Origin: Branchiostoma floridae
Lineage: Eukaryota > Chordata > Leptocardii > Amphioxiformes > Branchiostomatidae
Assembly: GCF_000003815.2 (NCBI RefSeq)
Contig: NC_049980.1
Span: 2,601,460-2,665,459, forward strand
Direction of reading: 5' to 3'
DNA length: 64,000 nt
The position numbers and the translations under genes were made by a program. Shown here in pieces: positions 16,301 through 41,926 of the stretch (positions are counted from its first letter, which is position 1; each line of letters opens with the position of its first letter). Below the pieces are notes generated by a model. It was given only the letters and a program-made list of their open reading frames with translations, was not told the DNA's origin and searched no databases.

Positions 16301-16827
16301 ATGAGTGCTACCGATAAGGCAGGCGGTGTGGATAAGGCAGACGTTGCTTCCGCCTCTGTTGTCACCGCGGCGTCGTTTACGTCGAGTGACGGCGACGACG
16401 AGGGTCTTGGGACGACGACGTATAGCGTCAGCACGTCGTCAGACGTGGAAAGCACGGCGAGCAGCTCCACCGTGACCGAGGTGCGACATAAGCGGTACGT
16501 GGTGACCAGCTCCTCGGGACGACTGTCGAGCGTCCCCGCCGACCCAGGTCCCGAACCCCCCACCTTCCCCACCACCGACATCGTGTCGCTGAACGCCCGC
16601 TTCATGTACTACGTGGACCGCGTGCGTTTCCTGGAGCAGGAGAACCGTACCCTGCGCCACAGCGTGACGGAGCTGGAGGTCAGGTCTGTGTCCCCGGAGA
16701 TGTACCGAACCTTCCAGCAGGAGATAGACAGGGGGCGGCAGAAGGTGGCGGACCTGGGCGCAGAGAGGGCGCATCTACAGGTGGAGGTACAGAGGCTGGA
16801 GAGGGAGATGCGCGAATTCAACCACAA
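16301..16827 (+). CDS. IF-KASH exon 1: head, coil 1A, start of coil 1B
   Basis: The ATG at 16301 follows an in-frame TGA at 16286 and has a good context (GCCGTCGCCATG), which fixes the start. A Ser/Thr/Asp-rich head is followed at residue 97 by the IF coil 1A signature (LNARFMYYVDRVRFLEQEN). Heptads follow (EMYRTFQQEIDRGRQ, EVQRLEREMREF). The exon ends AACCACAA|GTGAGA with two bases of a codon left over. The lamin exon 1/2 junction falls at the homologous place and in the same phase, which points to lamin-like gene ancestry. Confidence 0.85.

Positions 16828-41926: not shown

Follow-up and report, generated by a model that had tools for sequence, protein, structure and literature searches.

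A predicted amphioxus KASH protein with an intermediate-filament-derived coiled coil

Can a single gene join an intermediate filament (IF)-type rod to a KASH anchor of the nuclear envelope? In the literature examined, the contact between KASH proteins and IFs uses an adaptor: two papers state that nesprin-3 links the nucleus to IFs through plectin (PMC7800377, PMC3296292) and that expression of nesprin-3 brings vimentin to the nucleus (PMC3296292). A protein carrying both an IF-type coiled coil and a KASH end would bypass this adaptor. The question is raised by a stretch of 64,000 nucleotides of Branchiostoma floridae DNA, in the following called the window, in which an earlier note had read an exon chain of this kind. 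We report here that the locus is predicted, with good support from sequence comparison, to encode a KASH protein with an IF-derived coiled coil, and that one gene almost certainly encodes both of its ends.

Exon chain and gene models

A single plus-strand gene spans positions 16301-41926 of the window. Between 27980 and 41926 its chain comprises 13 exons, the 12 junctions of which keep the frame and yield 2090 residues without an internal stop; the splice junctions of the chain are of the GT-AG type. The split codons at 31825/32118, 35257/35790 and 41457/41638 resolve in the joined chain as the earlier note had read them, and its statement that every junction keeps frame holds for 27980-41926 but not for the step from exon 1 to 27980, which needs an exon outside the window sequence.

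The B. floridae protein P0002 matches the plus strand exactly and exon by exon, with the exception of residues 177-196 and of residue 348, the codon of which is split by an intron. P0002 was most likely annotated on the same sequence and so is not independent of the window; independent of it are the proteins of B. lanceolatum and B. belcheri. It uses the exons 29707-29778 and 37744-37899 as well as an inner donor at 32302, through which most of the large exon 32118-35257 is bypassed to give short models, and it begins the exon at 40034 three bases later (40037). While the reading of one plus-strand gene was correct, the earlier chain had missed these two exons, the inner donor and exon 2.

Exon 2 (61 bp, 20 residues plus one base, P0002 residues 177-196) is not contained in the visible window sequence, a search of which returned no convincing candidate, and none of the 16 matches of a whole-assembly search with P0006 spans the 20 residues. 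The stretch from exon 1 to exon 3 contains three gaps, one of 785 bases (26930-27714), which is a gap of the assembly itself, and two of 100 bases at 22676 and 24184. Exon 2 is probably located inside the 785-base gap rather than the smaller ones. Since P0002 holds an exon that the assembly appears to lack, transcripts or homologous proteins were probably used in its annotation. The features of the locus are as follows.

16301-16827, plus strand: exon 1, with the ATG, a Ser/Thr-rich head, coil 1A (LNARFMYYVDRVRFLEQEN), linker L1 and the start of coil 1B; ends in phase 2; identical to P0002 residues 1-176
26930-27714, no strand: gap of 785 N, probable site of exon 2 (VFEESRSRKEALRELEKLKT, 1+60 bp, from P0002)
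27980-28075, plus strand: exon 3, 96 bp, coil 1B; P0002 residues 197-228
28551-28616, plus strand: exon 4, 66 bp (ESTEY...), aligns with vimentin coil 2; absent from P0005
29707-29778, plus strand: optional exon of 24 amino acids, NTKVAIGVLGAQGELQQYVTGNEG; part of P0002 but not of P0001 or P0006
30060-30161, plus strand: exon 5, 102 bp, coil 2; matched by P0002 and the Filament profile
31707-31825, plus strand: exon 6, 119 bp, end of coil 2 (EYEKLMHMKLDLELAL, then KHHGLEYTTIQY); ends in phase 2
32118-35257, plus strand: tail exon with SP/TP sites and KKRK, then a long repeat-bearing tail; inner donor at 32302
32212-32223, plus strand: KKRK, candidate lamin-like nuclear localisation signal (NLS), about 32 residues past the rod-end exon
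35790-37231, plus strand: tail exon with tandem GLSGPKRVLTASGEYVV-type units
37744-37899, plus strand: tail exon, RKTLEKADFEEG...KRRQM; P0002 residues 891-942
38272-38550, plus strand: tail exon; P0002 residues 943-1035
38959-39150, plus strand: tail exon; P0002 residues 1036-1099/1100
39442-39618, plus strand: Trp-motif exon, KSGWGRFFGRQS...NFWGKS; 50% identity to 40800-40985 over 62 residues
40034-40141, plus strand: Trp-motif exon, RSWWSRLLG; absent from P0003 and P0005
40797-40991, plus strand: Trp-motif exon, KSGWWRFLTRQS...NSWGKS; matched by P0002
41390-41457, plus strand: juxtamembrane exon, ends in phase 2; matched by P0002
41638-41926, plus strand: last exon, with a basic stretch, one transmembrane helix (about 41741-41809), the luminal KASH peptide, SPPPI and the stop

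Most of the intron preceding the rod-end exon is taken up by a 28-bp minisatellite of about 46 copies (30407-31702), which stops a few bases short of the 3' splice site of that exon.

The two ends of the predicted protein

Exon 1 (query 16301-16828), read earlier as an IF head and coil 1A, matches the Filament family PF00038 of Pfam with 57.4 bits against a cut-off of 40. The rod assembled with exon 2 reaches 101.1 bits with this profile, and the five homologues scanned all lie between 63.5 and 93.3 bits, again above the cut-off of 40. Exons 5 and 6 (query with some tail) match positions 240-298 of the 313 positions of the profile with 23.5 bits, a score that, taken alone, is below the whole-protein cut-off. 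Of the rod end described in the earlier note, the end of coil 2 in exon 6 could be retained; the rod itself is shortened, and the helix-termination motif TYRKLLEGEE is absent, the profile match ending at 298 of 313 with KHHGLEYTTIQY in place of the motif.

The shortening is visible when residues 92-311 of the A1 profile are aligned to vimentin residues 105-399, which leaves the rod about 75 residues shorter. By phmmer, the second half of the rod falls on vimentin coil 2 (283-399) with only a two-residue gap near its end, and a competing phmmer alignment places the first part of this half on vimentin coil 1B. An AlphaFold model of P0006, calculated from six sequences, contains a helix at residues 91-127 (block pLDDT 57-71), a four-residue break, a second helix at 132-313 (66-87) and the membrane helix at 1050-1082 (39-65), with low confidence elsewhere and a mean of 41.3. 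In this model coil 1A and L1 look normal and the linker L12 appears to be lost. A Foldseek search with the predicted P0006 structure gave 204 matches at E<=10 and none at E<=0.001.

Coil 1A of the rod still matches the coil 1A structures of both vimentin and lamin. With the rod as phmmer query, vimentin (55.8 bits) ranks above lamin (32.2 bits), and with the A1 profile the best solved structure is lamin A/C (34 bits), followed by vimentin with 31.4 bits. The rod is coded by six exons, exon 2 included, plus the optional exon, and the lengths of 61, 96 and 102+119 bp equal those of vimentin exons 2, 3 and 6, which we take to be 61, 96 and 221 bp. This agreement points to an ancestral gene of type III-like structure, from which approximately exon 4 and one half of exon 5 would have been lost. 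Since about 75 residues and the helix-termination motif are missing and the rod is predicted to have no L12, it is doubtful that it is able to assemble into filaments on its own. Two features that define IF proteins are not found in it, the full rod with L12 and the helix-termination motif, and the protein should for this reason be called IF-derived.

At the opposite end, the earlier reading of a membrane helix followed by a KASH-like end was confirmed. The last exon (query 41609-41923) matches the KASH family PF10541 with 31.5 bits (E 2.3e-7) against a cut-off of 23; a score above noise had been named beforehand as a check on this reading. All five full-length homologues scanned lie at 26.7-28.0 bits, over the same cut-off of 23. 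The KASH score is modest. Hydropathy of P0002 peaks at 3.06 for residues 1316-1334, compared with a best value of 1.27 elsewhere in the protein, and a single transmembrane helix is predicted, followed at the extreme C terminus by a short luminal peptide that ends SPPPI. Among solved structures, this peptide is closest to nesprin-3 (6wme, E 0.0033, ungapped), with the nesprin-1 structures at E 0.087 and 0.2. Its cysteine aligns with the cysteine of the nesprin-3 and nesprin-1 peptides and lies 23 residues from the end. According to PMC10719071, KASH1-4 have a cysteine at -23, and position -11 is a kink-forming proline in KASH1/2 and a leucine in KASH3-5. In the amphioxus peptide, position -11 is phenylalanine and the kink proline is missing, in which respect it resembles KASH3-5. 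The aligned cysteine together with the phenylalanine at -11 leads to the prediction that the luminal peptide follows a KASH3-like straight path.

Related proteins, constraint and the tail

The fusion read from the window recurs in other amphioxus, with both domains found in models from three Branchiostoma species. A search with the joined chain against about 5.8 billion proteins (7975 candidates scored, threshold E<=0.001) returned five proteins, all from Branchiostoma, and our own Pfam scan found Filament and KASH in each of them. A search with the A1 profile (7983 candidates scored, threshold E<=10) gave eight proteins, all Branchiostoma by name, six of which carry both domains in precomputed Pfam annotation; this restriction to Branchiostoma is limited in its meaning, as the search may be partly affected by the low-complexity flooding described below. 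The eight proteins, all of which are gene predictions, stem from B. floridae, B. belcheri, B. lanceolatum and two hybrids. P0007 of B. belcheri is a model without the membrane helix that retains the luminal end, and P0008 of B. lanceolatum is a model without KASH, which suggests that a soluble isoform may exist. A third search with rod plus KASH (residues 1-496 of 499; 7991 candidates) had no match at E<=0.001, probably because it was swamped by low-complexity words. As vimentin-like proteins would have been expected to pass (vimentin 55.8 bits) and none did, this search is uninformative beyond Branchiostoma. Within the genome, 12 of the 16 matches of P0006 lie at this locus, and the remaining four are weak (25-40 bits), two of them to the coil 1 region, two to the repeat tail and none to KASH.

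Databases already list the sequences, as serine-rich adhesin, mucin-19-like, GFAP, uncharacterized or hypothetical; the first three names are misleading and would be corrected by the present assignment.

Constraint was measured by comparing P0002 with P0003, P0004 and P0005, the rod count excluding exon 4 and the optional exon. Shared rod segments are kept at 90-96%, the exon-1 part including coil 1A at 75-76 of 82 residues, and the transmembrane helix with KASH at 95% (61 of 64 against each protein). The post-rod stretch (85-89%) and the head (78-81%) follow. Lower values were obtained for the last Trp module (69-74%) and the repeat tail (68-74%), for the juxtamembrane stretch (59-63%) and, lowest of all, for residues 891-1193, with 27-30% of the 212-252 residues alignable out of 303. 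Two conserved ends and a variable tether form the pattern that a linker would show. The differing models suggest that splicing may vary both the length of the tail and the coil-2 segment, the latter differing between gene models and carrying extra insertions in P0003 and P0008.

Directly after the rod, the SP/TP sites are invariant in the A1 proteins, and KKRK is invariant in all five of these and present in all eight related proteins. Exon 32118-35257 in its long form is matched by P0003 of B. lanceolatum, with 38% identity over 972 columns (E 7e-100). A coding 108-bp tandem repeat of about 7.7 copies (36080-36907) encodes the GLSGPKRVLTASGEYVV-like units, and GP(K/R)R-type units, 7 to 13 per protein across the eight proteins, are found in both large tail exons. 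From 37744 to 40991, related exons carry Trp motifs (KSGWWRFF.RQS, FWGK/SWGK), and motifs such as KSGWWRFF.RQS repeat toward the membrane end. Pfam matches in the repeat tail (Inhibitor_I66 with 23.4-32.8 bits, TruB_C with 21.1-38.2 bits and weaker ones) are taken as artefacts of repeat composition, even though two of these families exceed their own cut-off in some proteins.

Comparison with known systems and possible function

We compared the predicted protein with characterized families that share one of its ends. Vimentin-type cytoplasmic IFs have the same order of head, coil 1A, coil 1B and coil 2, whereas the amphioxus protein is about 75 residues short around L12, has no TYRKLLEGEE and possesses a transmembrane KASH end. 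Lamins carry SP/TP sites and an NLS after the rod and have a membrane-anchored C terminus, and the amphioxus protein resembles them in its IF-type rod, its post-rod SP/TP sites with the candidate NLS KKRK and a C terminus anchored, as predicted, to a membrane at the nucleus. In contrast to lamins, the anchor is a transmembrane helix with KASH; no lamin tail Ig fold was matched by Pfam at E<=0.01 in P0001-P0005, and the protein terminates in SPPPI instead of a CaaX end. The coiled coils of Jaw1/LRMP and KASH5, which likewise carry KASH and have no spectrin repeats, are of a kind other than IF rods. Type VI IFs (nestin, tanabin, synemin) resemble the amphioxus protein in the IF rod and in the repeat tail behind it, which is very long and evolves fast; their rods have three coding exons (PMC2075511), while the amphioxus rod has six and one optional exon, and a KASH end is found only in the latter. 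Nesprin-3 (SYNE3) with plectin is the counterpart whose KASH peptide is nearest among solved structures, but it has spectrin repeats and the plectin adaptor where the amphioxus chain itself includes an IF-type rod; neither spectrin repeats nor the CH domains known from nesprin-1/2 were matched by Pfam at E<=0.01 in P0001-P0005. Among the papers listed by searches of the open-access literature, titles and the beginnings of abstracts contained no description of an IF-KASH protein. Karabinos 2023, which as cited in PMC10590288 deals with the IF genes of Branchiostoma, may list the gene.

SUN-domain matches occur at two places in the genome, and two other KASH exons score 70.9 and 67.4 bits compared with 31.5 bits here, both with a proline at the place aligned with -11; among the three, the KASH exon of this gene clearly diverges most. 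One of the two others, at L002 1414-1671, ends NGPSPT and not GPPPX. Plakin repeats give 20 matches in the genome, all within C2:9.40-9.43 Mb. We had considered that amphioxus might lack plectin and that the fusion arose for this reason; the 20 matches led us to reject this idea, and the protein does not merely stand in for a missing plectin.

Our preferred reading, the case for and against which is evenly balanced, is that a single amphioxus gene would supply a SUN-bound KASH protein of the outer nuclear membrane whose rod adapts to cytoplasmic IFs. Counted against it are the shortened rod, the coil-2 segment that changes from model to model, the modest KASH score, KKRK with the SP/TP sites, the plakin repeats of the genome, and the models P0007 and P0008. 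Its parts differ in strength. The protein is very probably SUN-bound at the nuclear envelope and the rod side likely faces outside the nucleus, and we lean slightly towards a rod that would contact IFs directly. SUN proteins would hold the C terminus at the outer nuclear membrane, the rod would dimerise and lie in the cytoplasm as an adaptor, coil 1 would dock on or co-assemble with cytoplasmic IFs, and one chain would do the job of nesprin-3 plus plectin of vertebrates. We tentatively consider a bolder form, in which the protein would be an IF subunit and a LINC component at once, the rod co-assembling with cytoplasmic IFs, KASH locked to SUN, the disordered tether tuned by splicing and plectin unneeded; amphioxus nuclei would then grow an IF cage, or hold one, directly from the outer nuclear membrane. 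The idea of the earlier note that filaments are seeded on the outer nuclear membrane is similarly a hypothesis of below-even probability.

The contact with IFs is the point at which the strongest alternative departs, according to which the IF-derived rod of this KASH protein only dimerises or oligomerises and the cargo binds to the tail or to the Trp motifs. This would fit the short rod, which has no helix-termination motif and, in the model, no L12, the changes to the coil-2 segment by optional exons and by the further insertions of P0003, and the recurrence of KSGWWRFF.RQS-like motifs toward the membrane. Yet a mere dimeriser need not keep coil 1A, the match of which to vimentin and lamin is retained and which lies in the conserved exon-1 part of the rod (75-76 of 82 residues in P0003-P0005), and we regard this alternative as rather unlikely.

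More improbable still is a protein of the inner membrane and the lamina, short isoforms of which would cross the pore by means of KKRK, with the rod meeting the lamina and the transmembrane helix replacing the CaaX lipid. Short nesprins do occur at the inner nuclear membrane, the invariant SP/TP sites and the KKRK of all eight proteins follow soon after the rod and could send part of the protein inward, and lamin A/C is the best solved match of the A1 profile. Against this, KASH proteins usually reach SUN from the side of the outer membrane, each of the six models that carry both domains has more than 1000 extraluminal residues, and phmmer with the rod prefers vimentin over lamin. Finally, that gene predictors merged an IF gene with an adjacent small KASH gene would fit the three gaps between exon 1 and exon 3, the end of P0008 before KASH and the fact that all models are predicted, perhaps by similar pipelines, but is very improbable given both domains in six of eight proteins and three species, twelve successive junctions in frame, GP(K/R)R-type units shared by both large tail exons, joint conservation of both ends and the inclusion of exon 2 in P0002.

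Should the reading of an outer-membrane adaptor hold, a chordate relative of vertebrates would possess a one-molecule link from nucleus to IFs. The fusion would also show LINC proteins gaining new cytoplasmic ends, and whether direct coupling of IFs to the nucleus is sufficient would become testable.

Elsewhere in the window, the minus strand carries a tRNA-Cys gene (14254-14328), an exon of a leucine-rich-repeat protein (4522-5652, LRR_8 165.8 bits) and, at 46698-58589, frames matching EGF_CA, ZP-N (just under its cut-off) and F5/8 type C, which possibly belong to one or more surface-protein genes.
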